Shown: positions 30,270-52,317 of the stretch, one piece after another | Layout of the letters: each line of letters opens with the position of its first letter | Position numbering within the stretch: position 1 is the first letter of the stretch | Translations under genes and position numbers: made by a program | The notes under the pieces: model-generated | Seen by the model: only the letters and a program-made list of their open reading frames with translations | What the model was told of the DNA's origin: nothing | Databases searched by the model: none | Source: Sipunculus nudus | Lineage: Eukaryota > Annelida > Sipuncula > Golfingiida > Sipunculidae | DNA length: 64,000 nucleotides | Direction: 5' to 3' | Assembly: GCA_026874595.1 (NCBI GenBank) | Contig: CM049322.1 | Span: 3,085,900 to 3,149,899 of the forward strand

Positions 30270-33200
30270 TTAAGAAGTTAGGGTGAAAGCTGAAGTGAAG
30301 AAGTAACTGTGAGGATATTGATGTGACAAAGTAAAAGTGATGATGTGGGTATGATACAGTGACAGTGATGATGTTTGTATGTTACAGTGACAGTGATGAT
30401 GTTGATGTGATACAGTGACAGTGATGATGTAGGAGTGATACAGTGACAGTGATGATGTTTGGATGTTACAGTGACAGTGATGATGTTGATGTGATGTAGT
30501 GACAGTGATGATGTTGGTGTGATGTAGTGACAGTGATGATGCCGGTGTGATGTAGTGACAGTGATGATGTTGATGTGATACAGTGACAGTGATGATGTAG
30601 GAGTGATACAGTGACAGTGATGATGTTTGTATGTTACAGTGACAGTGATGATGTTGATGTGATACAGTGACAGTGATGATGTTTGTATGTTACAGTGACA
30701 GTGATGATGTTGATGTGATACAGTGACAGTGGTGATGTGAGTATGATACAGTGACAGTGATGATGTTGGTGTGATACAGTGACAGTGATGATGTGAGTAT
30801 GATACAGTGACAGTGATGATGTTGATGTGATACAGTGACAGTGATGATGTAGGAGTGATACAGTGACAGTGATGATGTTTGTATGTTACAGTGACAGTGA
30901 TGATGTTGATGTGATACAGTGACAGTGATGATGTTTGTATGTTACAGTGACAGTGATGATGTTGATGTGATACAGTGACAGTGGTGATGTGAGTATGATA
31001 CAGTGACAGTGATGATGTTTGTGTGATACAGTGACAGTGATGATGTGAGTATGATACAGTGACAGTGATGATGTTGATGTGATACAGTGACATTGATGAT
31101 GTAGGAGTGATACAGTGACAGTAATGATGTTTGTATGTTACAGTGACAGTGATGATGTTGATGTGATACAGTGACAGTGGTGATGTGAGTATGATACAGT
31201 GACAGTGATGATGTTGGTGTGATACAGTGACAGTGATGATGTGAGTATGATACAGTGACAATGATGATGTTGATGTGATACAGTGACAGTGATGATGTAG
31301 GAGTGATACAGTGACAGTGATGATGTTGATGTGATACAATGACAGTGATGATGTTTGTATGTTACAGTGACAGTGATGATGTTGATGTGATACAGTGACA
31401 ATGTTTGTATGTTACAGTGACAGTGATGATGTTGATGTGATACAGTGACAGTGGTGATGTGAGTATGATACAGTGACAGTGATGATGTCGGTGTGATACA
31501 GTGACAGTGATGATTTGAGAATGATACAGTGACAATGATGATGTTGATGTGATACAGTGACAGTGATGATGTTTGTATGTTACAGTGACAGTGATGATGT
31601 TGATGTTATACAGTGACAGTGGTGATGTGAGTATGATACAGGGACAGTGATGATGTTGGTGTGATACAGTGACAATGGTGATGTGAATATGATACAGTGA
31701 CAGTGATGATGTGAGTATGATACAGTGACAGTGATGATGTTGATGTGATACAGTGACAGTGATGATGTAGGAGTGATACAGTGACAGTGATGATGTTTGT
31801 ATGTTACAGTGACAGTGATGATGTTGATGTGATACAGTGACAGTGATGATGTTTGTATGTTACAGTGACAGTGATGATGTTGATGTGATACAGTGACAGT
31901 GGTGATGTGAGTATGATACAGTGACAGTGATGATGTTTGTGTGATACAGTGACAGTGATGATGTGAGTATGATACAGTGACAGTGATGATTTGAGTATGA
32001 TACAGTGACAATGATGATGTTGATGTGATACAGTGACAGTGATGATGTTTGTATGTTACAGTGACAGTGATGATGTTGATGTTATACAGTGACAGTGGTG
32101 ATGTGAGTATGATACAGGGACAGTGATGATGTTGGTGTGATACAGTGACAATGGTGATGTGAATATGATACAGTGACAGTGATGATGTTTGTATGTTACA
32201 GTGACAGTGATGATGTTGATATGATACAGTGACATTGATGATGTGGGTGTGATACAGTGACAGTGATGATGTTTGTGTGATACAGTGACAGTGATGATGT
32301 GAGTATGATACAGTGACAGTGATGATGTTGGTGTGATACAGTGACAATGGTGATGTGAATATGATACAGTGACAGTGATGATGTTTGTATGTTACAGTGA
32401 CAGTGATGATGTGGGTGTGATGCAGTGACAGTGATGATGTGGGTGTGATACAGTGACAGTGATGATGTGGGTGTGATACAGTGACAGTGATGATGTTGGT
32501 GTGATACAGTGACAGTGATGATGTGGGTGTGATACAGTGACAGTGATGATGTGGGTGTGATGCAGTGACAGTGATGATGTGGGTGTGATACAGTGACAGT
32601 GATGATGTGGGTGTGATACAGTGACAGTGATGATGTGGGTGTGATACAGTGACAGTGATGATGTGGTTGTGATACAGTGACAGTGATGATGTGGGTGTGA
32701 TACAGTGACAGTGATGATGTGGGTGTGATATAGTGACAGTGATGATGTTTGTGTGATACAGTGACAGTGATGATGTGGGTGTGATACAGTGACAGTGATG
32801 ATGTTTGTGTGATACAGTGACAGTGATGATGTGGGTGTGATACAGTGACAGTGATGATGTTTGTGTGATACAGTGACAGTGATGATGTTTGTGTGATACA
32901 GTGACAGTGATGATGTTTGTTTGATACAGTGACAGTGATGATGTAGGTGTGATACAGTGACAGTGGTGTTGTTTGTGTGATATAGTGACAGTGGTGATGT
33001 TTGTGTGATACAGTGACAGTGATGATGTTTGTTTGATACAGTGACAGTGATGATGTGGGTGTGATACAGTGACAGTGGTGTTGTTTGTGTGATATAGTGA
33101 CAGTGGTGATGTTTGTGTGATACAGTGACAGTGATGATGTAGGAGTGATACAGTGACAGTGATGATGTTTGTATGTTACAGTGACAGTGATGATGTTGAT

Positions 33201-35080
33201 GTGATACAGTGACAGTGATGATGTTTGTATGTTACAGTGACAGTGATGATGTTGATGTGATACGGTGACAGTGGTGATGTGAGTATGATACAGTGACAGT
33301 GATGATGTTGGTGTGATACAGTGACAGTGATGATGTGAGTATGATACAGTGACAGTGATGATGTTGATGTGATACAGTGACAGTGATGATGTAGGAGTGA
33401 TACAGTGACAGTGATGATGTTTGTATGTTACAGTGACAGTGATGATGTTGATGTGATACAGTGACAGTGATGATGTTTGTATGTTACAGTGACAGTGATG
33501 ATGTTGATGTGATACAGTGACAGTGGTGATGTGAGTATGATACAGTGACAGTGATGATGTTTGTGTGATACAGTGACAGTGATGATGTGAGTATGATACA
33601 GTGACAGTGATGATGTTGATGTGATACAGTGACATTGATGATGTAGGAGTGATACAGTGACAGTAATGATGTTTGTATGTTACAGTGACAGTGATGATGT
33701 TGATGTGATACAGTGACAGTGGTGATGTGAGTATGATACAGTGACAGTGATGATGTTGGTGTGATACAGTGAAAGTGATGATGTGAGTATGATACAGTGA
33801 CAATGATGATGTTGATGTGATACAGTGACAGTGATGATGTAGGAGTGATACAGTGACAGTGATGATGTTGATGTGATACAATGACAGTGATGATGTTTGT
33901 ATGTTACAGTGACAGTGATGATGTTGATGTGATACAGTGACAATGTTTGTATGTTACAGTGACAGTGATGATGTGGGTGTGATGCAGTGACAGTGATGAT
34001 GTGGGTGTGATGCAGTGACAGTGATGATGTTGATGTGATACAGTGACAGTGATGATGTAGGAGTGATACAGTGACAGTGATGATGTTTGTATGTTACAGT
34101 GACAGTGATGATGTTGATGTGATACAGTGACAGTGATGATGTGGGTGTGATACAGTGACAGTGATGATGTTTGTGTGATACAGTGACAGTGATGATGTGA
34201 GTATGATACAGTGACAGTGATGATGTTGGTGTGATACAGTGACAATGGTGATGTGAATATGATACAGTGACAGTGATGATGTTTGTATGTTACAGTGACA
34301 GTGATGATGTGGGTGTGATGCAGTGACAGTGATGATGTGGGTGTGATACAGTGACAGTGATGATGTGGGTGTGATACAGTGACAGTGATGATGTTGGTGT
34401 GATACAGTGACAGTGATGATGTGGGTGTGATACAGTGACAGTGATGATGTGGGTGTGATGCAGTGACAGTGATGATGTGGGTGTGATACAGTGACAGTGA
34501 TGATGTGGGTGTGATACAGTGACAGTGATGATGTAGGAGTGATACAGTGACAGTGATGATGTTGATGTGATACAATGACAGTGATGATGTTTGTATGTTA
34601 CAGTGACAGTGATGATGTTGATGTGATACAGTGACAATGTTTGTATGTTACAGTGACAGTGATGATGTGGGTGTGATACAGTGACAGTGATGATGTGGGT
34701 GTGATACAGTGACAGTGATGATGTGGGTGTGATACAGTGACAGTGATGATGTGGGTGTGATACAGTGACAGTGATGATGTGGGTGTGATACAGTGACAGT
34801 GATGATGTGGGTGTGATACAGTGACAGTGATGATGTGGGGGTGATACAGTGACAGTGCTGATGTTGGTGTGATACAGTGACAGTGATGATGTGGGTGTGA
34901 TACAGTGACAGTGATGATGTGGGTGTGATACAGTGACAGTGCTGATGTGGGTGTGATACAGTGACAGTTCTGATGTGGGTGTGATACAGTGACAGTGGTG
35001 ATGTTGGTTTGATACAGTGACCTTGGTGTTTTTGGTTTGATGCAGTGACAGTGGTGACGTTGATGTGGTGCAGTGTCCCC
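30270..35080. repeat. 28-bp minisatellite, about 170 copies, with nested higher-order repeats
   Basis: The unit contains GATACAGTGACAGTGATGAT followed by an eight-base variable part (GTGGGTGT, GTTTGTGT, GTTGATGT, GTAGGAGT, GTGAGTAT, or GTTTGTAT leading into GTTACAG). Variant order repeats at several scales. A nine-unit (252-bp) block recurs with GTAGGAG at 30,597, 30,849 and 31,101. A 17-unit (476-bp) block recurs with GTTATAC at 31,605 and 32,081. A block of about 0.8 kb around 30,597-31,420 recurs at an offset of 2,542 bp. Minus-strand ORFs (up to 561 codons, HHHCHC-type repeats) reflect a stop-free unit, not a gene. Confidence 0.97.
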
Positions 35081-36084
35081 TACAGTAGTTTTCACATAGC
35101 ATCCATCAATAAGTGAGCTTTTGGTGAAATATCTTAGGGATAGATGTTTGTATCAGCCTTAAACTATCCATGATTTTACCCCTTGGATAGCTTTGTTGCA
35201 GACAAGACAGGAGGCACCACTTCCTGAATATTATCCTAGAATACATATTTGCCTTTTCATCAGGAGTTTTTTCTATGTGTCCGAGTGAAATTTTGCATGT
35301 CCATATATCGTGGAATTATTTCATTCTTTGTACAAGACTGATGATGCCACATACATTAATCTTTATAATTTCATAAATATATGTCTTGGGATACTTGGGT
35401 TTCTCTGATGGGTTTCAACAAATGTGGAGGGTTGTCTCGTAAGGAAGGATTCCATGCATCACTTTATCCGTGCCTGTGTGATTTGGCAGATCCCTGCAGT
35501 TGCTTGTCCACTGCCTTTATTCCAGTTTTTGCACAGTCTGTGTTCCTGCTTATTTTTCAAAAGTAATTTTACATATCAGCTTGAATTCGTGCATGTTTAT
35601 ACATCTTGAATAGTTTCTTAGTATAAAACACTAGTGGCATATTGATTTTGGGTTACTTGCAACTGTGCACATAGGTCAAGATTGGTTGACATTTCTGCCC
35701 GCAGTTTTACATGTCCATACATTTATGACAGGTTTCTCATAAACAAAACCTATGGCACCACCTATGATAGTTTATTTTTTAGTTTACATAAATCACAGTA
35801 AATCAGGTGTGATTTGACATATCATCCTGAAATTGTGCATCTCCATACATCTCAGATAGCTGTGTCATATGTACAGGACTGATGGTGCAAACCTACAGTT
35901 GCTTTTGCCTTGCATGTATCTGTGATAATAATGCCAAAGTAGTTTGATACATCTGCATGAAATTTTATAATGTCCCTGCATACATCTCCAGTGGCTTTCT
36001 TGTACAAAAGAAAGGTGTTGACACCTATAATCATTTCTGCATAATGCACATCCATGTAATTATCTCAGGAGTATTTTTATACTC
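35081..36084. repeat. Degenerate interspersed repeat, loosely periodic
   Basis: Diverged copies about 160-190 bp apart share a TGCATGTCCATA(C/T)AT-like start and a TGGYRCCACC-like part (near 35,290, 35,590, 35,705, 35,835, 35,960). The phrases resemble those in element A and the 43-44.7 kb block. No gene seen. Confidence 0.4.
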
Positions 36085-36625
36085 AGGTTTAAAATATGTA
36101 GTACTTGTTTTGCGCATGTATATGTCAGACATGTAGTGCTTGTCTTGTGCATGTACATGTCGAGGGAAGAATGAGAATCTGGGAAGATCCAGAATCCTCC
36201 CGGGAAAAATCAGAAATTTCCCGGGAGAGACTGGAATTCTCATTTGTCCCAGGAAGAATGAGAATTCTCATTCTTCCTGGGAAGAATGAGATTCCCTTCA
36301 TACCATCTCATACCCATTATTCCCAGGAAAAATCAGAATTCTCATTTTTCCCGGGAGGATTCCGGATCTTCCAAGATTTTCATTCTCCTCTGGACATATA
36401 TGTCAGACATGTAGTGCTTGCCTGGTGCATGTACATATGTCAGACATGTAGTGCTTGCCTTGTGCATGTATATGTCAAACATGTAGTGCTTGCCTTGTCC
36501 ATGTATATGTCAGACATGTAGTGCTTGCCTTGTGCATGTATATGTCAAACATGTAGTGCTTGCCTTATGCATGTATATGTCAGACATGTAGTGCTTGCCT
36601 TGTGCATGTATATGTCAGACATGTA
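36085..36625. repeat. 35-bp minisatellite split by an insertion
   Basis: The unit contains CAGACATGTAGTGCTTGCCT and then TGTGCATGTATATGT. About two copies lie at 36,095-36,163 and about six at 36,396-36,625. The sequence between them is an unrelated palindromic insertion. Confidence 0.85.
36164..36395. mobile_element. Palindromic insertion inside the 35-bp array
   Basis: About 230 bp. The ends are imperfect inverted repeats: GAAGATCCAGAATCCTCCCG on the left, GAAGATCCGGAATCCTCCCG as the complement of the right end. At 36,247-36,282 there is a perfect 36-bp palindrome centred on GAGAATTCTC. The element is built of repeated GGGAAAAATCAGAATT / GAAGAATGAGAATTCTC modules in both orientations. Flanking bases (ACATGTC / ACATATATGTC) are array sequence, so a target duplication cannot be separated. 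Confidence 0.65.
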
Positions 36626-36849
36626 CTTGAAAAGTAATGGTCAAATAAGGGAAGGATTATAATTATTGTTTATCAAATTGCACAAGATTGCGTTATTTTC
36701 TATGGAGGATCAAGGGGGGGGGGGGCGGTATGGGAGGGGGGGGGGGGTGTCTCTGGGTGTCATGTCAGCATTCCTGGTTTTCCTGATTGGTGGAGAATGC
36801 GGGCTGAGGCTTATTTTCTAAGAGGCTCTGAATATCAGTGCAATGTTGA
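36626..36849. other. Spacer with G-runs
   Basis: Two poly-G tracts lie at about 36,714-36,747. No gene. Confidence 0.5.
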
Positions 36850-37715
36850 CATCATCATTATGATGGAGTGACAGGGATTATGTATGTGTGATTCAGTGAC
36901 AGGGATAATGTAGGTGTAATGTAGGGACAGGGATTATCTTGATGTGATGCAGTGAAAGGGATTATGTAGGTGTAATGCAGTAACAGGAATAATGAACGTG
37001 TAATGCAGTGACAGGGATTAAGTAGGTGTAATGCAGTGAAAGGGATTATGTAGGTGTAATGTAGGGACAGGGATTATGTTTGCGTGATAAGATGACAGGG
37101 ATTATGTAGGTGTAATGCAAATACAGAGATTATATAGGTGTAATGAAGTGACAGGGACTATGTAGGTGTAATGCAGTGACAGGGATTATGTATTTGTAAT
37201 GCAGTGAAAGGGATTATGTATGTGTAATACAGAGACAGGGATTATGTTGAAGTCAAAAGGTGACAGGGATTATGTGGGTGTAATGCAGTGACAGAGATTA
37301 TGTAGGTGTAATTAAGTGATAGGGACTCTGTAGGTGTAGTTCAGGGACAGGGATTATGTTAGTGTGATAAGGTGACAGGGATTTTGTTGGTGTACTGCAG
37401 TGACAGGGAATATGTAGGTGTAATGCAGTGACAGGGACTATGTAGGTGTAATACAGTGACAGGAATCATTTAGGTGTAATGCAGTGACAAGGATTATGCA
37501 GGTGTGATGCAGTGACAGGGATTATGTAGGTGTGATGCAGTGACAGGGATTATGTAGGTGTGGTGCAGTGACCAGGATTATGTAGGTGTGATCCTGCGAC
37601 GGGGATTATGTAGGTGTGATAGAGTAACAGTGATGTTGTTGGTGTGATGAAGTTACAGTGATGATGTTGGTGTGATGAAGTTACAGTGATGTTGTTGGTG
37701 TGATGAAGTATGAAA
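36850..37715. repeat. Diverged 28-bp minisatellite, about 31 copies
   Basis: The typical unit has GTGATGCAGTGACAGGGATT followed by ATGTAGGT. It aligns base for base with the 30.3-35.1 kb unit (GTGATACAGTGACAGTGATG then ATGTGGGT), differing at about five positions. Copies are much more heterogeneous than in the larger array. The last three units (37,621-37,710) revert to the GTGATGTTG type. Confidence 0.9.
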
Positions 37716-39278
37716 TATGGTTATCCTTTGCAATAATATTTTGATGTTAAAGAGACACAATCACCTGTCTGACTTTAATAAACAATAATAAACATAAGGT
37801 AATCCCTCGTAGCTTTTGTAAAAATAGTCCAGAAAACGTGGATAACACCGCACACAGGCTGCTCGTTTTGTCTATAACAACATGTTTCTAATATATGGAG
37901 GCCCACCAAAATAAGTAACACAAATTCAATGATCAACACCAAATTCTGGTGGTATATTAGATAATCTAGAGCTTTGCAAATGGGATTTTGCAACATGTTA
38001 AATTTGTACCTTTCCAGATTGTCAACTATGCTGTTTTCACAAACATGGTGTTGATAAAGAAGTTCATACATCCTTAATGGAGATGATTTAAGAAGTTTTC
38101 ATAACTAGAATAACCTTTAGGCCTTTAATATATACACAGAGGAAGCCATAAATCACATATATTATTTTCCAATAGTTAGGTGATTGGGCACCTTTAAACA
38201 GTTAAAATACAGTATCCAACATTTCTCCTGTTGTATTATACAGCATTGTACATCATTGTGCCATGCCGTCTTATGTGTCTTTTTTTCCAGGTCAGAGAAG
38301 AGGCTAAATCAAGTGCTGAGATTTGTGCAGAACAGAGCAAATGACTGGAGGAAATAAGCAATAAAATCAAGAGAAAATAGATAAGCAAGCGAAGGTGATG
38401 TTAACAATCAGCACAGAATTTACAGACAAAATACCTTTCTATTTTGGAATGTGTTGGTCATGGTAATGACGTTTACTGATATTATAGAAGATCGAGTGAT
38501 CAAGGTTTTGTGAAATATATATTCAACACAGCATGGCTGTTATTACATTTTCCACAATATTCGCTGAGTCATTGTGGCAGATTGCTGCATGTTGTTATGT
38601 AGATATAACCTGTGGACGTTACTTGTGCAATAAACTTTGTTGCCCTTGGTCCTTAAACTTTTAATACATTGAATGTAAGGAACACGAATATATATATATA
38701 TATCATTGTGAAACTTTGATGAGAGAGATAAGTAAGAGTGGTTGTAAATAAGTAATCTCAATGATGGCTGTGTCAAAAGAGGGTGATACTGATGTTAGAG
38801 ATGATGACAGTGATTATGTTAATGAAAAATGAAGACAGTGTGGACTATTGTGATAACATGGCTGGGGTGTTAGTGCCAGATAGTGACAGAGTTTATGTGG
38901 TTTCGGACGGAGAGAGTAATGACATTAACCCCTAAGCGAGAGCAGAGTTTCTTAAGAAGGATATATGTTGATTGATGTGCGTAAAAGAAACATAGATGAA
39001 AGCAATGATGAGGTAGGTGTGAGTTAAGAAGTGCTATGATGATGCTGGGGGTTCATGGGTCGGATAATTTGCTCTTGTTCGAAGGTTTGGGTATTTTATG
39101 TTGGTAAGAATAAAGAAACATACTTGATAAATGATGACAAAGACATTACGGCTAAAGGCTGATACAAAAAACTATATTTAATAAATGGAAGTTACAGAAC
39201 TAATACAGATATGATTTTTATATGAGGATAGGTGTCGATGAATATTATTTGTGATGAATATATATCGGTCATGCTGGT
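37716..39278. other. Intergenic region between the 28-bp array and the lectin gene
   Basis: No confident gene. A 98-codon ATG ORF on the minus strand at 37,775-38,071 contains one hydrophobic stretch but has no recognised family. A possible 3'-terminal exon on the plus strand is listed separately. Confidence 0.35.
38291..38357 (+). CDS. Possible small terminal exon, unknown gene
   Basis: A strong pyrimidine tract and acceptor (TCTTTTTTTTCCAG) is followed by an open stretch. In one phase it reads SEKRLNQVLRFVQNRAND then WRK and TAA at 38,355. AATAAA follows at 38,360-38,365. A second phase is also open but ends earlier (TGA at 38,342). No upstream exon was found, so this may be chance. Confidence 0.15.
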
Positions 39279-39284
39279 TTTATT
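39279..39284 (-). promoter_or_regulatory. Candidate polyadenylation signal of the lectin receptor
   Basis: AATAAA on the minus strand, about 70 nt past the stop. Another AATAAA overlaps the stop codon itself (39,356-39,351). Confidence 0.35.
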
Positions 39285-39351
39285 ATTTCAGTTTAAAAAA
39301 AAATGTAGTGTCAGCCAAGCAAGTCTCTAATGAATGTTGCAGCCAAAATTT

Positions 39352-39593
39352 TTATTCCAGTATTCTCACCGTAGGTAACATCTCTGTATAGCTGGCCAAT
39401 CGGTGATGTTTCTGACCGTGGCGTCCATGCTCTGTACGCACCCAGACCAGGTCCACATAGACCTCATCCATGGGGACCGTCACGTGCTTGTCGTGCCAAC
39501 TCCACAGGTCTATTTTGTCGTATAACTTGAGGAGAGTTCCAGTCAACAGTAGCTGCAGATTGCCACTATGAGGGTGCTGCCTCTCACCAACAT
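39352..39593 (-). CDS. Lectin-receptor exon 8: cytoplasmic tail and stop
   Basis: Acceptor TTCTGTTTAG|AT. 79 codons and TAA at 39,354-39,352. It contains the three tyrosine motifs YDKI, YVDL and YTEM. Confidence 0.75.
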
Positions 39594-39969
39594 CTAAACA
39601 GAAACCACAACACTCAGAGGCAGCCAGTTTGTCCAGTGATTACCAAAAACTAAATGCGGGGTCAGGGTTTTTTTCAGTGAGGATTTATAGACCTTACTTT
39701 TACACCATTTTCATGTAGAAATATTCTACAGAATCTTAGTTACATATCTATTTAATCAAACATTTAATGAAACCGTAAGATATTAATATTTGACTGCGGT
39801 ATAATCTTCCAACTTCCTGAACGAGGGTGTTTAACTGCATCTCACATTCGGTACTAATTGAATGAGAATAACAATGATTCAATTAAACTATGAGCTTTAA
39901 GTCCATAGATACCGATACACAGACAGACATGTATGTTTTTAACTTTACTAAAATAACTCGGAACTGGAT

Positions 39970-40017
<48 letters not shown>

Positions 40018-43000
40018 CAATTATCCTTCATAGCGAATATCTTCAGATATTTATTTAGATATGTATTACATAACAATCTGGCAACTTGCCTATTCGTTGT
40101 AATGGGGTGTTCTCTTCTTTTGCTGTCTCACCTAGCGTATTACTTGGTCTCCCTCTATGCTGATGTAATATAAAAAAATGTACTCACAGATATTTGTACC
40201 TTGTGCAATAAATGGAAATATTAAAGTTTGTTCATATTATATTCTACTCTGTCTAACATAATAAAGACTTACTCTCTTTAGTCGACATAGTAACGCGCCG
40301 ATCAGGATACCAACCAGGATTGCCACAGCCCAAACAGAACAGCTCACAATTAGTATTGTTCCGTGTGTTGTCTTGTTTTGAACTATTGTATCTTCATCTA
40401 AAATATTTAAAGTTTTCTTACTCGAATAAGCTTCGGTAAATTAAACAAAAAAATAGGAAATTGTAAATAATTTTGTCCTTGTACACGCAAATATGGAACA
40501 AATAATATTTAGAATTTAAGGTAAATAACTTTAAGAGAGGGTTCGGATATGTATTCTTGACAGCGATGTGAAACTTTATATTTTACCCCTAATAGAGGCA
40601 TTCCACCTGGAGGTTCGTCAAGTTGATTAAACCTATTTTGTGTATTATACTGCCAGATTAATTATCATGTTCTAATAAATTAACTATGGAAGTGCGTCAA
40701 AGCAAATTGAACGTAAATACATATATACGTACTCTCCACGAACGTGCGTATGTTTGGCAAAGCACTCGGATCTATATTCATTGATTTCAGAATAAATATA
40801 ATTCTTCACAAATCGCTTACTATTGTGTGACAGCTTGAATATGTTGGAATTACCTATTTGCAGGTTTAGACACACAAAATTGAGCTCATAGTGACAAGGC
40901 TTTGGTTCGAATATCAGAGATGATTGTTGCATCTTGACCTGTCCACAGCGCCCGGTGTCTTTCATGTGATGAGGATCCCAGTTTCTGTATACCCTATCAA
41001 CTGCAAATAGCCAACAATCATCTAATAGTTTAGTTCTGCCAAAATATGAACCCAGAGATAGTAATTTCTATCATACACATTCGTCCAAAATGAAGTTTTT
41101 CACCACATGCGTCATATTGCATACAGTTTCACAAGATTCCCACTTTGTATAATTTCCCCTCACCCAATAACCGTTGGGAGTTTCAAACTTGTATTGTAAA
41201 ATATATGAATAAACTATTGATTCATACTGATACATACCTGGTTCATCATACTCATCCAGCCATTCCTCTTTCCTTAATCCAACCCAGAATCTGTCACAGG
41301 TCCACTTGTGTTTCGCTAGTTCTTCCATTGTGTCCCTGCGTTTGACCTGAGCCATGGTATATCCCCAGAAGTGACAGTACGACCGGGATTCATGCCAAGT
41401 CAGTCCTTCACAGTAATGCATGTAGCAGGTACCATTGTGTTCACGTCCAATCCATCTTCGATGAAATTCCTCGCAAATTGGATCTGAGAACAAATCACAG
41501 ACTGTATACTTTGAAGCTTTATTACCATAATTTTATACATCAATCCTTAGGCTGTACAGACATCCTTGTATTATATCTGACAATTTATAATGTTCATGAT
41601 ACATAAACATTTGGTTAAACAGCCAGAAAAATCCGTTCTGACCTACTATCAAGCTTAATGTTTATGTTTTCGCCGATCACACTGCGACTAACAACATGGA
41701 TTCATCAAACTTTAATAAAGGTTTAACCTTTTATCTGGCACATGACTCCTGCGGTCGTTTCAGAGCACTGTCCTGGTTCCAGACGCAGCGTTTTCTGATT
41801 AAACCAGACACACATTTTATTGGGATGAATGTTCTCAAAGGAACCTACAAAATCCCAAACTCAGTTTTATTAATAATCATTATATATACTGTATATAGAA
41901 TAAACCAGTTTAAGAATCCTATAATCGACTGCGCATTTTGAAAAAAAAAAAAAAAAATATAGGAGATGCAGTGAGCTGGTGCGAACCTAATATGCTATAA
42001 GTTTGTATGCATTGAGCTTCTAAAATATTTCAAACATAAATAGTTTGCTGCCACAGTTGTATCTCTCAAACCTTGATGATTACATAGCCTTGATATGTCT
42101 GATTCAACATACGCCATTTTGCTATAATATTGGTAGATACGATATCCCCTTGACCATATATCGTTTACCTTTTAGCTCTCCATCAATCCATCTCCACTGG
42201 TCCATGTTTCTTCTCTTCAGGTTCACCCACGATGACGTCATGTTGTATTGATTCATATACTCAAAGACCTGACTCATTTCGCTTTCATTCCCAAACGACC
42301 CCAGTTTACTACCGTTCAGTTTGCAGCAGTGTTCAGCACGGAACCACGTTGCTGCTCCGTCACAGTTATAATCAGCTGACGCATTATCTATTTTAACAAA
42401 AATACATCAGAACATTGAGCATCTCAAACAATTAAAATCAGTGTTTTTGCATCTTGTATGCAAAATTATAATTTACAGCGACTATGTAACCAGGGGATCG
42501 ATAGGCTATACACCATATAGCTGACGGCCTGTAAATGTTACATCAAGTGTGAATCTCTAAACGATATACTGACAGGTTCTTCCACGGAAACGCTGCATAA
42601 TAAACAAGCAGTCATAAAATGGGTCGTATAAAATAATATATCAATAAACGCCAGGCACCTGTCAAGTATTATCTTGTAGACTTTATATATGGAATTAGAG
42701 AGTGCAGAACGGAGTTCCATATAAAATGTTCGTGAGGGATGGCACTGCATCCTATTGATGTGAGAAGGGGATTAACGGGTGGACATCATCGTTTGTAGAC
42801 TAAGAATGTGAATTCCCCGACCCCAAACACCTAGTAACTGCATAGTATTTCAGACAGAATCACTGAAAGATAATTGTATCCCCAGACAAAGTTGGGATAC
42901 TATGCTTTCACGACGGTCCAGCCGACGCTGCAGAAAAATCTTGTGAGCGGGATAACTCAAAAAGATATTTCACTGATCTTTTTCAAACATTACATATGTA

Positions 43001-46000
43001 TAGATATAGGTAAGAGGACGAAGCCAATTTTAAAATGGGGTCATGATCTTTATTTGGAGAGTGACCTAGACCTAAAATAAGTCCATTTTTGCTGAAAATA
43101 ACACAGATTCAATATCTCAAGTAAGCTTGCATGGACTGGTCCAAAAATCAAGGTGACCGAAGATTTTGAATAGCCTTGTGATATGCCGGAAATTGGTGGC
43201 GCCACCTTTTATGCTTTTCTTGTTGTTACGTCTTTTAATATCCCGACAATTGCCACTTGACAGTACTGTGAGCATTGTAAGTAAAAAATTAATGGACAGA
43301 TTTCTTTCATATTATGAACATGTAGAGAGATGGGTTATGGGATTAGGTCCATTTAAATTTGGGTCATGACCTTTACCATGAGAGTGGCCTTGACCTTTAA
43401 TATTTACATATTTGGTGAAAATCACACACCTCTTATGACATCTCAAGTGTTGATAGCCATATGGATTTCAAACGTGACTTATCTATGGCTAATCACTAAA
43501 GTAAGAACCCTATAGGTTCTAGGGTCATGAGGTCAAAGGTCAAGGACACTGGATTCTTATCTTTAAAGATGTTGTGGATGCATCTTGAACATATAGCTCC
43601 TTTGCCAATAGTGGATGATCCATATAAATTTTCTAATCACAAGGTCAAAGGTCTAGGCCACAGAAGCTTTTTGTAAAAAAATTAGTTTCCGAATGATAAT
43701 TCCAGGTTTTTAATGTATGGATTTCAAATTTGACTTATATATGTCCCATTAAAAAGATCCCAATAGATTTTGAGGTCATGAGGCCAATAGTCAAGGTCAT
43801 AGGACAAACATCTTTAAAATGATTGTGGATGCATTTTCAGCCAAACTTTTCATCTCAGACCTTTTATCTTGCACATATAGTTCACCTGCCAATAGAGGAA
43901 GACCCCTATCCATTGTTTAGGTCACAAGGTCAAAGGTAAAGGTCACAGGAGCCATTTGTCCAAAATTTCATTTCCTGATGATAACTCCAGCTTGGGTTGA
44001 TATATGGGTTTCAAATTTGACATATATTTCCATCCATCTTGGAAAGTTTTCTCATAAACCATACAGGTTGCGCCACCTGCCTTGCCTTTTTGTTGAATAA
44101 ATTAACATAAATTACCTCTTTTCTGAGGAGTGATTTGCCTTATTGGCCTGAAAATGTGCATATCCATAAATCGTGGATTCCTACATTTTGTACTCAAGAC
44201 TGGTGGCGCCATCAGCAATCGTTTTAGCGTGGCGTCCATCTGTACGTGTGCTTTGGGTGAAAATTGCTCATATCTCCGGATTGGTTCAAGGTAATGGTCT
44301 GAATTTTGGCACGTCAATCCATCTTGGAAAGTTTTCTCGTAAACCAGACAGGTGGAGCCACCTACCTTCCGTTTTTGTAGAATAAATAAATTTTCTTTTC
44401 TGAGGAGTGATTTGCACTATTGGCCTTAAATCGTGCATATCCATAGATCCGAGACTCCTCCATCTCATACTCAAGACTGGTGGCGCCATCTGCTATCGTT
44501 TTGCCGTGATTTCCATCTGTTCATGTGCTTTTGGTGAAAATTGCTCATATCTCTGGAGTGGTTCAAGGTATTGGTCTTAAATTTGGCATGTCTATCAATC
44601 TTGGAAAATTTCTTAAAAACCAGACAGGTGGCAACACTTACCTTCCTGTTTCTGTAAATTAAATTAATTAATGCTCTTTTCTCAAGAGAGATTCAACATA
44701 TTGGCCCCCATATTTGGAGAAAAATATTGTTTCTTAAGTTGGAAGATTGAAGAAACCATAGTCGCTTGCTAAGTGTCAGTATATGCTGCTGAAGACGGGG
44801 AGCCTATTCTCAAGAAAAAAAAGGGGGGGGGGGGGAGTAATTGTCTGCGGATATAATGGCACCTGCGATGCTAAGAAATATCTAGTTTTTAAAATGGAGG
44901 ACAGTGACCATCTAGGCGACCGTGATCTTACGGTTTCCTTCATCACTTTTGAGAAAAGATTCTTTAATCAAAACTCAGTAAAAATAAATCTGATAAATGA
45001 ACAACTAAAGCCCATTATGGGGGTCGTTCGACATGTATAAGAGGATATAGCCTTTTGAGGCTGCAAATCGTCGGCCATCTCCGATTTTAACGTCAGGATA
45101 GGTCGGTTCATAAATTTGACATCAAATATGAATTATTCGACTCCCAGAATCCATATTCATACGTTAAACAGTATTACAGGTAAAACTACTGAAAAATAAA
45201 TTTCAAAAGGGCGCATGGCTGCCATTTTGAAATACGCTCTTTCACGTATTCCTCCCAGACTTTTTCAAGAGACACCGTATTTTTTATTCTACCTTCATAG
45301 AAGACAAATCAACTGAGAATCCAACCATCTCTCCCCGGTCACTGAATTTCCCCCGATGACCCAGCTAGAGCGGGACTGTGACGTCTGTTGTTTAGTATAA
45401 GACGCTCTCTCTGCTACATGAATAAATGATATATTATGATAATCTGCACGTCACTTTTATCCATAAATAAAGAGTCGGCCTTGTTAATGATCGGACATAT
45501 TGACGAGACGATAACGCAAGCCCAATTTCATTAATTTATATCCCTCCATATATCGACGATAAGGCTGCACTATTAATGGAGTGGACCCTTATGATATTAA
45601 TTTGCGTCATCATGTACCATGTGGCATGTAATGTTTTTGATAAAAAGAACTATTACGTTCGATGCACATATATTATCTTCAGTTTCCGGAAACAAGTATA
45701 TTAGAATATGTGTCAGGGTAAAGAGCTGAACCGTTTATAGGATGTGTTCTACTGTTTCAAATAGTACGAAGTTTCATGATGAAAAGCCTCTTTGAGGGAC
45801 CAAAAACTTTTCATGATGTATCTGCATGAGCCAGTTTTCATAGTCATAACTTTTCAGAATGGCCCATGGCTCCCTGAACAAACTTTCTCACTAGAATAGA
45901 GGTTTCTTTCTATGTAGGTACTTGTTTCATGTACATAAGACGGTTTTTGCATGTTAGGCATACTGGGCGAACAGCACTTCCAGGCAATTTGTCTCTGAAA

Positions 46001-49000
46001 TTACAGCTACGTGTCTGGATCACAGGTAACTATGTTGACTAGCGGAAAGGCGGTCCCTAACACCGATTTATCACAGACCTTAAATCAATTAAACGTACTT
46101 TGAAAAAAATACTCTGGCGATTCTGCTTACCGAAGAGATTTATGGATTTTTTTGCTCCCACCTAATACATATACGGAACATATCCTCGGAAACCGTTTTT
46201 GTTTCCCTTTTTAGCTCAGCTGACTATAAGTCATCTGAGCTATAGTCATGGTCCATTGTCCGTCGTCCGTCCGTCTGTCTGTCCGTCCGTCCGTCCGTCC
46301 GTCTGGATGTCCGTCCGTAAGACTGGCACGTTTCGACACCGTTGGACCTACGAATCTGAATTTCGGCATACAGTTAGATGTCCCCATAATCTCCTACCAT
46401 GTCAAACATTGGGTCAATAAGACTTCGTTCCTCTGAGATATTAAGGAAAAACCTCAATTTGTTATTAGAAATCTATTTTCACACTTCAGGACTGCCTAAT
46501 ATCAAAACCACTCATCTGGTTTTCTTCATATTTACCATAACTATTCCTCTATAAAGTTCCTATGTACATGCCAGATATTAAGTCAGTATTATATAATTTA
46601 AAAACGTTATGGTCCCAAACAAAATGGACTTTGTAAAAAAATCAGGAAGATATTTGGTCACTTAAGACCAAAAGTGTAAAAGGTAGGGACTTTTTTCCAG
46701 TAATACAACTTTAATTAATCAAAATTTAATTGTATACCAAAAATTAGATCAAAATTTGTTAATTTTTTTTAAATATTGGAAAAATATAAAATTGGTACCT
46801 TAAATTTTGCCCAACTTTGGCCATGGCACGTTTTCTTCCTGTTAGTACTGTGGATTTAATTTTCACACCATGTATACATAAGGATTTAATCTGTTAAAAT
46901 CTGAAATTTGAAAATAAAAGCTGCAAAATTAGGCTAGTTATTGAATTTTTTTGGAGGCTCTTGTTGTATTCCCTTACATTGTCAAGCAGTCCACTTTGAT
47001 GACTGTAGGTCATTCAGTGCACATCTCTATGCTCCCAAGGCTGTTGACATAATTTTAGATGTCCCCAAAATCTCCTACCATACCGAAAATTGGGTCATTA
47101 GGACTTTGTTCCTTCGAGATATTAAGGGAAAAAAACTCTGTTTTCCCTAAAAAAAAAGCCATTGTTACACTTCAAGGCTGCCTAATATCAAAACCACTGA
47201 TCTGTTTTTGATCGTATTTAGTATTCACATTCTTTTATACATTTTCTATGAACATACCAAAAATTAGGTCAGTATTGGGTATTATTTTGAAGTTATAGGC
47301 CAAAACATAATGCACTTTTTTAAAAAAATCAGGAAATATATTTACTCACCTAACATGAGAATTGCTGAACCTAGAGACTTTTTTTCAGGAATATAACTTT
47401 ATTTAATCAAGATTCAATTGTTTACCCAAAATTAGATCTGAATTTTGCAAATTTTTCAAGTTATTAGCATAAATAAAAAAATCAATACCTTAAATTTTGT
47501 CCAACTTTGGCACTGTTGATTTAATTTTTCCAGCATATATGCATAAGGATTTAATCTTTTAAAATCTGAACTTTCAAAAGAAAATTGATTGGAATGAATA
47601 GCTTTTATTCATGTTTTCATACACCATGTCAAGTGTTGTTCACATCTAGCCCACCTAGTAGTACAGCCTTCACTTGCATTATGTAACCCACCCCAGGCAG
47701 CTTACCTTGGCCCAGCTTGGCCACTACTAGCAGGCTTCCCCTCTGCCCTGCACTGATCCCCCCCAGCTGGTGCATAAACTAGATGAATGTTATAATTTTT
47801 CTGTATTTTATTTTATTCTTGGGCATGCTACATTTTAGATTTTGTATTGAACCACCAGGGTTACAATGATTAAAGTGTACATTTAATTGTGTCCACAAAG
47901 TGGTGTATTGCTGTGAAAGTGTGGATGTTCATGAGATAAGTAATTCCTTACTTCAGAAGAGTAAAAACTTCACCAGGTGTGAAATTGACTATTAATTCCA
48001 GTAATTAATTAAAACTGGGATAGTAATTAGCTCAATGATATTGTTTGTCCCTCATTCAACCAACAGTGTGTATACTTTATTTGAAAAGATGTTTTATTTT
48101 ATCAAATTTACTTTTATTTTATTTTGGTGAATAAAATTAAGCATATCCTGAAAACTCCAATGTGCAAACTTTTTAATAGTGATTCAAGGAATATTCTTGT
48201 AGATGCCATGTTGTGGCATTATTTTCTTTTAAAATCAGTTTAAACATTTATGATTTAAAAATAATAAAATATATGTGTATGCATAATATGACCCAATGTT
48301 TTTTACTCTGTATATATAATGATTGCAACTTTGCAACAATTCTAACATTTTAACTTATATTTTCAGGTTTTTTAATTAAAAATTTATAAACCTGTAAATA
48401 AAAAAATGATTCAGATAAAAACTTCTTAATGGAAAAAGTGGATCTGCTTAAAAAAATAGGATTATATATAAACTTAAATGCATTATTCTCTTGAAAGTGA
48501 AATAAAGGTATTAGTCCATTCTGTCCACTTGCCTGTCCATCTGTAAATTTTCGTATGCAACACAGTATCTCAAAACTTTTACTGTTTTTCTTCATGACAG
48601 TCTTGTCAGAGTATTTGTTTGCAATCATATATTTAGAACTTTACTATAACCAAGTAGGAGGGCCCCTTTCCTCTTAGCTTTTCATATTCTTATATAAATG
48701 AAAAACATTACAATAGAATATTTCTACATCCACCTTTGTGCTGCCCTCACTTTTCCCTTCTCCGAACCCCATCCCAAAGTCAGCCTCAGTAAGCAAGAAC
48801 AAGATGAATCAGATATATTCATACTTTAATATTTTGTATAACTATTCGTCCATAGGTACCTATGTACATGCCAGAAATTATGTCAATATTGTGTAATATG
48901 TAGACATAGTGGGCATCACAATAATGTACCTTGTCAAGAATAAAGAGATATTGTGTCATACAGTCACATATTCATAAATCACTTCATCAGCATAGTTAAT

Positions 49001-49561
49001 CATAACATCATATCTGTCAAATTGAACGCTTGCAGACTACCATACACTTTAGATCCTTCAACAAAAAGCCTTATCATCATTCTACTACTGCTTATTACTG
49101 CTGTCATTGCATTCATATTTACTCAAATATATCACAATTTTCAACCCCTCCTAAATAAATAAAAATAAACCACTTTATTTGACACTATTAATCCATCAGT
49201 CAGGTAATTTCATTTATCATTTACTCACATATTACAATTCCTTTATAATAGCCCAACATGTACATGATGTTCATAAGCTTTATCGCACGATATAGTATCA
49301 CAGTGGAGAAACATTTATAGTCCAATCACGATCAGCTGAACGCCGTGACCCATGGGTCCCTTGTTTTATTTAACGCACCGATTAATGACAAAAAAAAATA
49401 TTTCGTAGCTTTCGTATCTATAGAATGCATTTATCCTATATGTTATACCTTGCATAAAGCATGATTTTTACAGTTGTTAAGCTGCTAAGTAAAGGTTGCC
49501 TGAGTAACAGTAACCTGGGGTGTACATTTTAATTCATTTTAAAAGAGAAGCTGCAATGGCC

Positions 49562-49597
<36 letters not shown>

Positions 49598-49960
49598 TTA
49601 CAGGTTAAGGTGTCACTGCCTTACTTGTAACACTCAGGCCCAAGCACTGAGGCATTATCTTGGCACGTCTTATCGAAGGAAAAAATGGTAGTCCTCGGTT
49701 TTACGTGGAGCCTTAATTGTGATCATATTTATAGGTGACAGGAGAGAGCATTAGCGTACATGCTTATGATAAGGTTTGCAATGAATCGGAGGGCATTGTC
49801 CATATTGACGGGGAGGGGGCGTTCATGAAAGACCGAACTTTACTCGAGTAGAATGGTGCACAATAGTATAATAGCTATTAAGTGTAACCTGATCTGTTTT
49901 TCTCGTCGTGTGACCCACCTTATAACATAATATTGAGAAACCTCCTCGATCATGTGTTAG

Positions 49961-50011
<51 letters not shown>

Positions 50012-51242
50012 CACAGGCCAGATCTAAATCCAGTCCAATTTAGAACTGGCCTAGGCCAGGTCTCGATTGGGATCTGGTCTAGGCCAGATCACCATTGGGA
50101 TCTAGTCTAGGCCAGAACAAAACTCACCATCTCAAAACAAAATCTATGACCAGATTGAACTGTGAATGTTCTCAGTTCAATATGGTCATAAGGTGTATAA
50201 TATACGGGTATATTTATATTTTATATACTTTTTAAATATTAACAGTATATTTTGTCCATATATTAAGCATTTCCTATCTGCAATGTGGTAACAGATATAA
50301 AATTCTTAATTCTAGCTTTTTAATGAGACAATTATTTTTACATAATATTTAGATATAAGTAATATTATTGTGATATAAAATCAGAATCATGTCAGGTTAC
50401 ATCAGAAGCACAAAGTGATATGAAGTAACGATGACTAATGAAAATGTTAAATTTAAACACAACGGCACATATGTTTTGTGCTTTTAAATAGATTCACCTA
50501 CAAATTACCAGAATCACATACACTGTTAGACATCACACAATCAATATTTAACCCAGCTGACTTTAAGCCATCTGAGCATTAGCGGAGGAAAATAGGAAAA
50601 CATTTTTAGACTGATATGAAAATGTAATCAACAATGTTTCAGGACAAAAATGTGCCATGATTAAAGTAGCACAAAATTTAAGGTGGAATTTTAATTATAT
50701 TACCAATAACTAAATAAATTATATTATTTGCATACATTTTCTCGAATATATAAATCAAGTTATATATTCTGGAAATACACCGGTCTATATTCAGCAGTTA
50801 ACATATTAATCATATGTAAATCTGTCCTGCTGCTGTGGCTTACCAGATATATTAGTTCCAAGCCCATACTTCTCTAAACAGTACCCAAAATTGACTTAAT
50901 TCCAAATTTGTGCAACATTGGTATTTCAGTTATTAAGCAGATTCTAAAATATACAAAGATAGTCAGTGTAAACACCACCCAAGTTGCTCAATTTCTCAAA
51001 GGGAGGAGGTCATCATGACCTAGTATAAGGTATTGAAATATTAATGCCTCTAACCATCTGTATGCAAAATTTCAGGTTGGTAACCTAAACGGTTTTGTCA
51101 ATTTAACATAAAAATCAAGACAGGTAGGTAGCTGGACAGACAGACATGACAGACGAAGAGCCATTGCTATAGCTCAAATGTTTATGAGTCAGCAGAGCTT
51201 AAAATTTATTGTATATAATAAGGAATATATATATAAATATAA

Positions 51243-51279
<37 letters not shown>

Positions 51280-51901
51280 AGCATATAGAATACTTTAAAC
51301 TTTATTTAAATTAGTTAAGCTTACACTGGGTCATAGTTAAGATATATGAAACTGGACTAATACCAGTGTCAAATATGTTTCTTAAACAATAAAATGTAAT
51401 AATAAAAAAAATGAGTAATATAATATATCACCGTAAAATAGCTTGACTGAATAATTATGTAAAAAAATATTAATGTCTTATTCAAAAGATAGATTAAAGA
51501 ATTTTATATCTCTTACCACATAGCAGATATAAAGAGCATAATGTTTTGACAAGATACTTCTAATATTAAAAAAAATCATTATATATATATATATAAACAT
51601 GAAATATACTTCTAATAGTCATTTTACACTGAGAACATTTTGAGATGGTGAATTTTGATCTGGCCTAGTCCGAGTCCAAATCGCCATCTGGCTTGGTATA
51701 GTTTAGAACTGGCCGAGACCAGATCTAAATTGAGAAGCTTGATTTTGATCTGGCCTAGCCCAGATCCCAATCGTTATCTGGCCTCGTCCAGTTTAAAACT
51801 GGCCTAGACTAGATCCCAATAGTGATCTGGCCTAGACCAGATCCCAATCGAGACCTGGCCTAGGCCAGTTCTAAACTTGGCTCGATTTAGATCTGGCTTG
51901 T

Positions 51902-51941
<40 letters not shown>

Positions 51942-52317
51942 GGGAGAGAGAAAGAGAGGAATAGGATGATCCATTTGGTTAAAAAAATTACTATTTATGG
52001 AAAATATTGTGTTGCCCTCATCAGCAGAAACCTATTGTTGTTTCTAGTGACACTTGTCTTTGATTTTATTCAATCTAATATATAAGAAAATTAATCTTTG
52101 AAATTATGTTTGACCAGGGCAAACGAGCAGTTTAATCACATATAAAAACAATAGATCGCTTAATACAGGGTAATGGTACAGGGTATTATCCCATGACAAA
52201 TTATGAAAAGCTCCTTTTGTAATTATTAAGCTGATAAATAAGATCAGACTTACCGCTGATTTGGACCAGACGGCATATAAAGATGTAGAACAAGAGAGAA
52301 GTTGCCATGGCTGTCAT
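39352..52317 (-). CDS. Transmembrane receptor with two C-type-lectin-like domains (eight exons, 395 aa)
   Basis: Exons (minus): 52,317-52,254; 42,387-42,169; 41,844-41,728; 41,483-41,238; 41,000-40,854; 40,397-40,273; 40,159-40,132; 39,593-39,352. All have AG/GT borders, phases agree (phase 1 except phase 0 before exon 7), and the 1,188 nt form one frame. Residues 1-21 are a signal peptide, about 30-133 CTLD 1, about 137-260 CTLD 2 (WVGL 200-203; Cys 170/259 and 234/251 fit the conserved bridges), 278-302 transmembrane, and 303-395 cytoplasmic. Neither CTLD has a clear EPN/QPD plus WND calcium-sugar site, so binding may be calcium-independent or to protein. The tail has YDKI (340), YVDL (361, after DE) and YTEM (384). 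The family acts in cell-surface recognition; signalling through the tail is inference. Exon 1 joins across 9.9 kb by phase and signal-peptide logic only; extra exons are possible. Confidence 0.75.
39975..40014. repeat. (TA)n microsatellite in intron 7
   Basis: About 20 TA units in the intron between exon 7 and exon 8 of the lectin receptor. Confidence 0.9.
40132..40159 (-). CDS. Lectin-receptor exon 7: 28-nt micro-exon
   Basis: Acceptor TTACATCAG|CAT, donor CTAG|GTGAGA. Encodes HRGRPSNTL plus one nucleotide. It is needed to change phase from 0 to 1 between exons 6 and 8, which supports it despite its size. Confidence 0.65.
40273..40397 (-). CDS. Lectin-receptor exon 6: transmembrane segment
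   Basis: Acceptor TATTTTAG|AT, donor AGA|GTAAGT (phase 0). 41 codons. A hydrophobic stretch from TILIVSCSVW to GALLC is followed by the basic stop-transfer RLKR. Confidence 0.85.
40854..41000 (-). CDS. Lectin-receptor exon 5: second half of CTLD 2
   Basis: Acceptor TATTTGCAG|TT, donor ATAG|GTAATT. 48 codons. RNWDPHH stands where a W-x-EPN motif would be, GRCGQV gives the inner cysteine, and PCHYELNFVC closes the domain. Confidence 0.85.
41238..41483 (-). CDS. Lectin-receptor exon 4: first half of CTLD 2
   Basis: Acceptor TTCTCAG|AT, donor CCAG|GTATGT. 81 codons. NGTCYMHYCEGLTWHESRSY is the CTLD entry and helix, and DRFWVGLRKEEWLDE covers the WIGL and following strand. There is one N-glycosylation sequon (NGT). 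Confidence 0.85.
41728..41844 (-). CDS. Lectin-receptor exon 3: second half of CTLD 1
   Basis: Acceptor TTTTTGTAG|GT, donor AAAAG|GTTAAA. 38 codons with MCVWFNQ, then C121 and GVMCQIK, the standard C-terminal cysteine pattern of a CTLD. Confidence 0.75.
42169..42387 (-). CDS. Lectin-receptor exon 2: first half of CTLD 1
   Basis: Acceptor GTTAAAATAG|AT, donor AAAG|GTAAAC. 72 codons with TWFRAEHCCKLNGSKLGSF (loop typical of CTLD helix 1), SSWVNLKR (WIGL position) and QWRWIDG. Confidence 0.8.
42388..43100. other. Start of lectin-receptor intron 1
   Basis: No exon or repeat recognised. The first intron runs to 52,253 and is mostly interspersed repeats. Confidence 0.5.
43101..44720 (+). repeat. 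Interspersed repeat block with about 287-bp tandem copies
   Basis: At 44,050-44,650 a unit of about 287 bp repeats roughly twice. Each copy has AAGACTGGTGGCGCCATC, TGAAAATTGCTCATATCTC and a GACAGGTGG-GCCACCTACCTTCC-like stretch. Upstream, related diverged phrases (GGTGGCGCCACCTTTTA near 43,195, AGGTCAAAGGTCAAGG near 43,530) repeat irregularly. Same vocabulary as element A at 26.3 kb. Confidence 0.55.
44721..46211. other. Intronic single-copy region
   Basis: No gene or clear repeat, apart from a G-run near 44,823-44,835. A plus-strand ORF of 85 codons at 44,783-45,040 runs through the G-run and has no recognised family. Confidence 0.4.
46212..49368 (+). mobile_element. Interspersed element B, about 3.2 kb, same head and tail as element A
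   Basis: Head hairpin at 46,213-46,241 (AGCTCAGCTGAC / GTCATCTGAGCT), then CCGT/GTCC simple repeat at 46,258-46,318, then diverged direct copies about 690 bp apart (GCCTAATATCAAAACCACT at about 46,493 and 47,181). The tail CGTGACCCATGGGTCCCT lies at 49,333-49,368. It is longer than element A with a different internal repeat. No coding capacity. It lies inside lectin-receptor intron 1. Confidence 0.6.
49369..50008. other. Intronic sequence with (TA)n tracts
   Basis: (TA)n at 49,565-49,593 and 49,964-50,007. The second abuts the left end of the next element. Confidence 0.7.
50009..51905. mobile_element. 1.9-kb non-autonomous transposon-like element with 107-bp TIRs
   Basis: The left terminal repeat 50,009-50,115 and right terminal repeat 51,799-51,905 are reverse complements at about 94% over 107 bp and start TGTCACARGCCAGATCTAAA. 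The TIRs consist of a repeated module of about 30 bp built on CTGGCCTAGRCCAGATC and CCCAATCG. The right side continues into further diverged modules to about 51,650. (TA)n lies directly outside both ends, consistent with insertion at TA. The interior is AT-rich with no transposase ORF. It includes a partial head of the element A/B type at 50,554-50,577. Confidence 0.75.
51906..52253. other. Intronic sequence next to exon 1, with (TA)n
   Basis: (TA)n to about 51,937, then an AG-rich patch. Nothing else is recognised up to the exon 1 donor. Confidence 0.6.
52254..52317 (-). CDS. Lectin-receptor exon 1: start and signal peptide
   Basis: ATG at 52,317, with a second in-frame ATG at 52,308 in better context (GCCATGG). 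It encodes MTAMATSLLFYIFICRLVQI then S, a short hydrophobic signal peptide, and ends in the donor G|GTAAGT (phase 1). The next codon G|AT is completed by exon 2. Confidence 0.65.

Follow-up and report, generated by a model that had tools for sequence, protein, structure and literature searches.

Where does the gene end whose first eight exons lie on the minus strand of this stretch of Sipunculus nudus DNA? The window, by which we mean the whole stretch of 64,000 nucleotides that was analysed (assembly GCA_026874595.1, contig CM049322.1), holds an open frame for two C-type-lectin-like domains (CTLDs) and a transmembrane (TM) helix, and a sequence-only reading had closed this frame shortly after exon 8, as a membrane lectin with a signalling tail of its own. 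The genomic sequence leads us, with considerable confidence, to a different answer: the locus would be the front of a longer gene, in which the lectin domains and the membrane anchor are joined to the NACHT domain of an NLR-like sensor, and this is the explanation that we favour overall. That the gene is one of a genome-wide family with the anatomy signal-peptide-like start, CTLDs, TM helix, short linker, pre-NACHT module, NACHT and leucine-rich repeats (LRRs) we regard as very likely. NLRs are the textbook cytosolic sensors and C-type lectin receptors the textbook surface sensors; if the favoured explanation is true, this animal would have wired surface recognition straight into NLR assembly within one chain, with CARD-bearing sisters built on the same chassis.

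Exons 1 to 9 and the junction at intron 8

The evidence begins at the end of exon 8, where the sequence ACG/GTGAGA (the slash marks the exon boundary) forms a phase-0 splice donor. On the same strand, behind the acceptor TTTTCAG/GTT, exon 9 opens in phase 0, and the joined product reads SYTEMLPT followed across the junction by VIIGQRGHLIYLSGEPGVGKST. The NACHT domain of exon 9 scores 63.9 bits by Pfam against a cut-off of 26.7, with an intact P-loop, and is followed by matches to LRR_4 (18.4 bits) and NLRC4_HD2 (14.7 bits), both under the Pfam cut-off. Pfam detects no CARD, PYD or DD death-fold domain in the window protein, and nothing in the 12 kb upstream of its exon 8 matches a CARD exon. 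A GT donor marks the corresponding end of exon 8, or stands at most a few codons from it, in 29 of 30 loci (L009–L038, the window's own included); it is absent in L021 and shifted by two codons in L028. The agreement in phase between exons 8 and 9 recurs in L024, L026, L035 and L037, short-intron paralogues in which both exons are present, although the NACHT exon of L024 meets a stop after a few codons. Because a donor stands at the end of exon 8 and is kept in 29 of the 30 loci, the stop that follows the codons for VRILE is most likely met by reading through into intron 8. The protein end proposed from the sequence alone is thus not borne out, since the GTGAGA donor closes exon 8 and a NACHT exon follows in matching phase; of the 395 residues proposed, 390 are coded by the exons and the last five, VRILE, are probably intronic.

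Upstream of this point the eight exons proposed earlier hold at their minus-strand positions, with splice sites in place and an open joined frame. A paralogous locus 1 Mb away, L039 (C17:4121700-4129699), carries all eight in unchanged order, likewise 1212 nt in sum, and its exon 1 lies before exon 2 with corresponding splice sites, which supports the long join from 52254 to 42387. The nine exons, the intron between the last two and an in-frame stop are as follows.

52254..52317, minus strand: exon 1, start codon and signal-peptide-like stretch; L039 counterpart in order, 95.3% identity
42169..42387, minus strand: exon 2, first half of CTLD 1; Pfam and L039 counterpart
41728..41844, minus strand: exon 3, second half of CTLD 1; Pfam and L039 counterpart
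41238..41483, minus strand: exon 4, first half of CTLD 2; Pfam, PDB match and L039 counterpart
40854..41000, minus strand: exon 5, second half of CTLD 2; Pfam and L039 counterpart
40273..40397, minus strand: exon 6, predicted TM helix with basic residues after it; hydrophobicity maximum at residues 279-298
40090..40159, minus strand: exon 7, juxtamembrane linker, 70-nt form with a GC donor; 28-nt alternative at 40132-40159
39370..39593, minus strand: exon 8, pre-NACHT module (the 'tail' of the sequence-only reading), with a phase-0 end at the GTGAGA donor
24470..39369, minus strand: intron 8, 14.9 kb, with minisatellite arrays at 28275-29668, 30302-35075 and 36863-37709
22484..24469, minus strand: exon 9, 1986 nt, with NACHT (P-loop GEPGVGKST), post-NACHT region, weak LRRs and a TGA stop
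23819..23821, minus strand: in-frame TAA inside exon 9, after the NACHT match; the frame is then open for 444 further codons

The two CTLDs claimed earlier are recovered by Pfam as two Lectin_C stretches (56.8 bits), and one strong hydrophobic segment, that of exon 6, agrees with the single membrane pass. The first 20 residues encoded by exon 1 are moderately hydrophobic (mean 1.66). A classical sugar site is indeed lacking: EPN, QPD and WND are all absent, the sole near-miss being WIDG at residue 88, so that sugars are no more probable as ligands than proteins or non-classical ones. Exon 7 had been drawn as 28 nt (40132-40159), and a GT donor is present there; a 70-nt form (40159-40090) is also possible. 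At the 70-nt end the donor is GT in L039 and GC in the window and in L040–L043, and at the 28-nt end it is GT in the window, in L039 (GTGAGA) and in L042 (GTAAGA). Both forms may thus be used, and alternative splicing of the juxtamembrane linker is possible in the window (40131-40089) and in L039–L043. With the long exon 7, exons 1-8 encode 404 residues up to the end of exon 8.

The very large minisatellites of the window at 1-5914, 7334-11767, 28275-29668 and 30302-35075 have units of 32, 16, 29 and 28 bp; the 28-bp unit is present in 171 copies, and the arrays at 28275-29668 and 30302-35075 lie inside intron 8. Gene finders and human readers alike may truncate genes of this kind at the long, repeat-filled pre-NACHT intron. 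A second partial match to exon 4 lies on the reverse strand of L042 (5556-5676 and 5723-5968), possibly a duplicated half-CTLD exon.

Gene order across the genome and in the C17 array

We searched the same assembly (1.43 Gb, 153 contigs) with the 75-residue tail, and all family counts from it are lower bounds. The query returned at least 148 matches, of which at least 126 have E <0.01; these 126 of the 148 were used in the pre-NACHT counts. Of 139 matches to the ectodomain 92 were used, the 47 left out belonging to a dispersed open reading frame (ORF) of 441 aa (380 aa in one case), and all 99 NACHT and all 141 NACHT-C matches were kept. A NACHT match is found within 12 kb downstream on the same strand for 87 of the 126 pre-NACHT exons; the other three arrangements within 12 kb occur 2 times (upstream, same strand) and 0 and 1 times (opposite strand). 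The lectin side shows the same polarity. The 92 CTLD exons form 56 loci. In 43 of these a pre-NACHT or NACHT match follows on the same strand within 12 kb, as against 4 with one upstream on that strand and 0 with one on the opposite strand. Homologues of the TM exon 6 adjoin the pre-NACHT exon in five paralogues (L010, L012, L013, L014 and L016), and other TM-like exons lie near it at further loci.

The window is one unit of an array that spans about 2.6 Mb of contig C17 (2.30-4.87 Mb). NACHT matches on one strand were joined where less than 8 kb separated them, as were CTLD exons less than 6 kb apart, and the order was then read in the direction of transcription, with C for a lectin locus, P for pre-NACHT and N for NACHT. 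The minus strand reads CPNCPNCPNCPNCPNCPNCPNPNCPNPNNPNCPNCPNCPNCPNPNPN and the plus strand PNPNPNPNCPNCPNPN. Each P is followed by N (17/17 on the minus strand, 7/7 on the plus strand), and each C is followed by P (12/12 and 2/2); among 200000 shuffles, 0 reached the order of the minus strand and 8 that of the plus strand. Among the 18 merged N on the minus strand, the one at 3465141 lacks a P of its own, and stops occur in some N. Classed by what lies upstream, the 24 array units comprise 14 of lectin type, 5 of CARD type and 5 with neither detected. NACHT matches are concentrated on contig C17 generally, in several clusters besides the array.

Outside the array, the compact loci L074 and L075 show the anatomy at greater distance, with 38-39% identity to the window in the NACHT-C stretch. 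Each has one piece with CTLD 2 and TM and another with pre-NACHT, NACHT and LRR, with phases as in the window and no stop in the stretch covered. Their NACHT domains score 64.8 bits (L074) and 67.8 bits (L075) by Pfam, and L075 has LRRs over the cut-off (LRR_14, 40.1 bits against 40; LRR_Zer-1, 39.4 against 27); in L074 the LRR_14 match, at 24.2 bits, is under the cut-off of 40.

Might the lectin and NACHT exons be separate genes that merely travel together in tandem duplications? The long introns in the array and its five units without a detected lectin or CARD exon would suit such an arrangement. The phases are compatible at the pre-NACHT/NACHT junctions of six lower-identity loci, however, and the association is also observed on several contigs outside the array, which makes separate genes very unlikely in our judgement.

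CARD and lectin N-termini on one NACHT-LRR chassis

The pre-NACHT exon is also found behind a quite different N-terminus. Upstream of the pre-NACHT exon C17:9300059, the locus L078 encodes a CARD split over two exons, which when joined score 47.8 bits against the Pfam cut-off of 23.9. Its second CARD exon has an apparent phase-1 end, like exon 7, and its pre-NACHT exon opens in phase 1. A Pfam CARD search of the whole genome mostly found unsplit CARDs elsewhere and a dispersed element, and for this reason the split CARD of L078 was used as the query. It gave 150 matches, of which 110 entered the counts; the 40 left out come from one block at C15:22.69-22.75 Mb, where about 40 matches to CARD half-exons stand densely in tandem on a single strand. 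Of the 126 pre-NACHT exons, 28 are preceded by a CARD exon and 33 by a CTLD exon on the same strand within 12 kb, and none by both, where 7.3 are expected (P = 5.6e-5); as the CTLD and CARD queries came from one locus each and only the best candidates were scored, missed divergent exons could inflate this mutual exclusion. Among the array units, the CARD call at 2815909 rests on a single half-exon 9 kb away, and 2390316, one of the five with no detected type, has a CTLD match of 21.3 bits, just under the cut-off of 22.6.

In the 1.5 kb upstream of 30 pre-NACHT exons, judged by eye, a TM-like exon was seen at 16 loci (0 of CARD type, 12 of CTLD type and 4 of neither), was not seen at 13 (8 CARD, 5 CTLD type) and was doubtful at one (Fisher P = 3e-4). 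A tree built from 14 NACHT domains places L035, a CARD member, in a clade of four that includes the window copy (99/98), and the lectin members L001, L074 and L075 outside it, which suggests that N-terminal modules were swapped; the tree has few rows, 6 of its 14 members have no N-terminus label, and the CARD label of L007 comes from a sub-cut-off Pfam match together with the L078 CARD-exon search. An examination of the L080 DNA for its N-terminal type yielded nothing. Taken as predicted gene structures, these loci are two alternative N-termini, one a cytosolic CARD and the other a lectin-transmembrane module, on one NACHT-LRR chassis. The family would also offer a natural experiment in module swapping.

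The presence of one pre-NACHT exon behind both N-termini bears directly on the tail. Of its three YxxPhi tyrosines, the sequence-only reading had likened Y361, in an acidic YxxL context, to a hemITAM (ITAM, immunoreceptor tyrosine-based activation motif). All three are present, and among 34 aligned pre-NACHT exons 29, 32 and 33 retain them. They are also kept in exons that lie behind CARD exons without a TM-like exon within 1.5 kb upstream (e.g. L030-L032, L035). Because the tyrosines are common to CARD-type members, their conservation points to the pre-NACHT module and not to a hemITAM- or ITAM-like tail, though they may still bind SH2 domains; what had been taken for a signalling tail is the exon before NACHT in a family of NLR-like genes. 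A receptor-specific phosphotyrosine tail was rejected on the ground that the same tyrosines occur in exons between CARD and NACHT. The broader proposal of a short lectin receptor with a 93-residue phosphotyrosine tail, next to a separate downstream NACHT gene, draws on the frame's reaching a stop soon after exon 8 and on the presence and conservation of the motifs. Set against the exon 8 donor kept in 29 of 30 loci, the strict alternation with NACHT in the array and the same exon between CARD and NACHT at other loci, it seems to us highly improbable. An isoform that keeps the start of intron 8 is possible.

Between the window and L039, exon 8 has a dN/dS of 0.08 (75 codons, with 2 nonsynonymous and 6 synonymous changes), and the ratio is 0.33 for signal and CTLD 1, 0.72 for CTLD 2 and 1.59 for the TM-linker part; on these small counts the pattern agrees with constraint on the intracellular module and more freedom in the outer part. 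The nature of the module was also sought by structure. The tail and NACHT together matched two PDB rows, 5irl and 5irm, weakly (E 0.001; the best stretch alone, 0.06), with an alignment that begins in the tail, as a mere pointer. We take both entries to be rabbit NOD2; the PDB lists them as 'Uncharacterized protein'. The pre-NACHT profile A1 has no match in the PDB at E up to 10. Its members match 8 Pfam families at E up to 1, not one of them associated with NACHT.

The window copy, its possible function and known relatives

Several observations weigh against joining lectins and NACHT in this way. The intron between exons 8 and 9 is long and filled with repeats, and its 14.9 kb puts the window's own pair beyond the 12-kb counting limit; with it, 39 of the 126 pre-NACHT matches have no NACHT within 12 kb downstream on the same strand. 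Neither a lectin nor a CARD exon was detected within 12 kb upstream of 65 of the 126 pre-NACHT exons, and divergence, as at 2390316, may explain some of these. The exon linking TM to pre-NACHT was not located in L074 and L075, where the joins are inferred. In the window all LRR matches by Pfam are below the curated cut-offs and lie behind the TAA, and the TAA itself speaks against a full-length protein that works being made from this copy. Some more distant paralogues carry stops too. Finally, in one published membrane NLR, the AjNLR-new protein, the authors place NACHT outside the cell (PMC13133943).

The TAA would make the window copy a pseudogene or a null allele, unless it is an error of the assembly or the copy encodes a lectin-TM-NACHT protein shortened to about 620 residues. 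The seven full-stretch paralogues of at least 88% identity have no stop in the compared NACHT stretch; intact copies exist. Inspection by eye for splicing around the TAA gave no convincing intron whose removal would leave the conserved NACHT residues in place. With an in-frame stop inside the NACHT exon, the chances seem to us evenly balanced that the window copy is a dead gene without product and that the paralogues alone work. The 404 codons of exons 1-8 and the 444 codons past the TAA are open, so inactivation would be recent; a sequencing error is as good an explanation, and so is a truncated form with lectin, TM and NACHT.

For intact members of the favoured form, secretion and a single-pass topology are predicted. 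The TM helix is followed by basic residues, so the lectin domains should face the outside or the vesicle lumen and NACHT-LRR the cytosol. The most likely mechanism would then be that ligand binding or clustering outside draws NACHT domains together beneath the membrane, where nucleotide exchange and NACHT-NACHT contact yield an NLR-type oligomer. Because no CARD was found in lectin members, the probable partners in such a scheme would be CARD-bearing paralogues of the same array and chassis, recruited as helpers to a lectin sensor; this recruitment itself we hold to be doubtful. Somewhat less so, and still tentative, is the wider proposal of paired receptors made by N-terminal swap, in which cytosolic CARD members would act as executors, lectin-TM members would set NACHT-LRR under the surface so that an extracellular lectin nucleates an inflammasome-like assembly, and the pair would be maintained in one expanding tandem array.

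The main functional rival is that the same anatomy serves phagocytosis, with the lectins catching microbes and the inner part coupling to the cytoskeleton and not to an inflammasome-like oligomer. Such a role is reported for AjNLRC4, a membrane NLR of the sea cucumber that binds beta-actin through its intracellular part (PMC8699970), and AjNLR-new, with its NACHT outside, is likewise reported to drive phagocytosis (PMC13133943); no CARD exon lies in the 12 kb upstream of any of the 33 lectin-type pre-NACHT exons. AjNLRC4, however, has Ig domains and no LRRs, while LRRs over the cut-off are present in L075, and CARD-bearing kin are built on the same chassis here. We consider a phagocytic role rather unlikely.

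AjNLRC4 of Apostichopus japonicus has an Ig ectodomain, a TM segment, an intracellular NACHT, a second TM after NACHT and no LRR (PMC8699970). It shares with the anatomy favoured here the order of extracellular recognition domains, TM helix and NACHT, and the lack of a CARD, the inside position of NACHT being predicted in our case; it differs in having Ig domains where Pfam finds Lectin_C alone, and the S. nudus proteins form a large multigene family with a CARD alternative. In Crassostrea virginica, proteins with a Cys-rich ectodomain, TM, DED and TRADD-N have a variable C-terminus, some with STAND NTPases (PMC8195603, in the sections accessible). These too are an expanded family in which an ectodomain and one TM are joined to intracellular death or STAND machinery; the accessible sections name no C-type lectin domain, and the DED-TRADD-N dyad is not found in the window protein by Pfam. 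NACHT proteins predicted to be membrane-bound are also described, in accessible parts of the sources, in actiniarians, with three to five N-terminal TM segments (PMC5094078), and in a sponge, with transmembrane domains (PMC12909245). The anemone proteins thus differ in having several TM segments, and those parts mention no lectin ectodomain for either group. A study of over 200 pearl-oyster NACHT genes lists Death, HEPN, LRR, TPR and WD40 as partners, and the word 'lectin' is absent from its main text. Membrane NLRs therefore have precedents in sea cucumber, anemones, sponge and, as TM-DED-TRADD-N, oyster; within the open full-text literature, taken in the parts accessible and with supplements, subscription journals and preprints outside this scope, we found no description of a lectin-TM-NACHT protein.

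Canonical NLRs (CARD-NACHT-LRR) share the NACHT-LRR chassis, and a CARD form exists in the window's family. They are cytosolic and without an anchor, whereas the window protein has a predicted transmembrane exon; in the lectin form a signal-peptide-like start, CTLDs and TM stand in place of the N-terminal effector. Receptors of the CLEC-2/Dectin kind resemble the lectin form in bearing CTLDs on a single-pass membrane protein, and CLEC1B chains are the best PDB matches of CTLD 2 (E 0.0006). CLEC receptors have type II topology. Here, in contrast, a signal-like start is N-terminal, two CTLDs precede the TM helix, and NACHT-LRR takes the place of the hemITAM.

The dispersed element that both the ectodomain and the CARD searches met occurs in 47 places (e.g. 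C17:45832-46479, minus strand, and C17:66585-66809, plus strand; L081:65-1390). Its single-exon ORF codes for 441 aa (380 in one copy), begins with a hydrophobic stretch and includes a C-type lectin domain; the one copy that was scanned scores 40.9 bits for Lectin_C. In 44 of the 47 places a CARD ORF of about 230 aa lies within 40 kb on the opposite strand, at 14-21 kb in 43 and at 36 kb in one, and 275-aa CARD ORFs are found near many copies. The element looks like a large mobile element or an endogenous large DNA virus that carries host-like immune domains.

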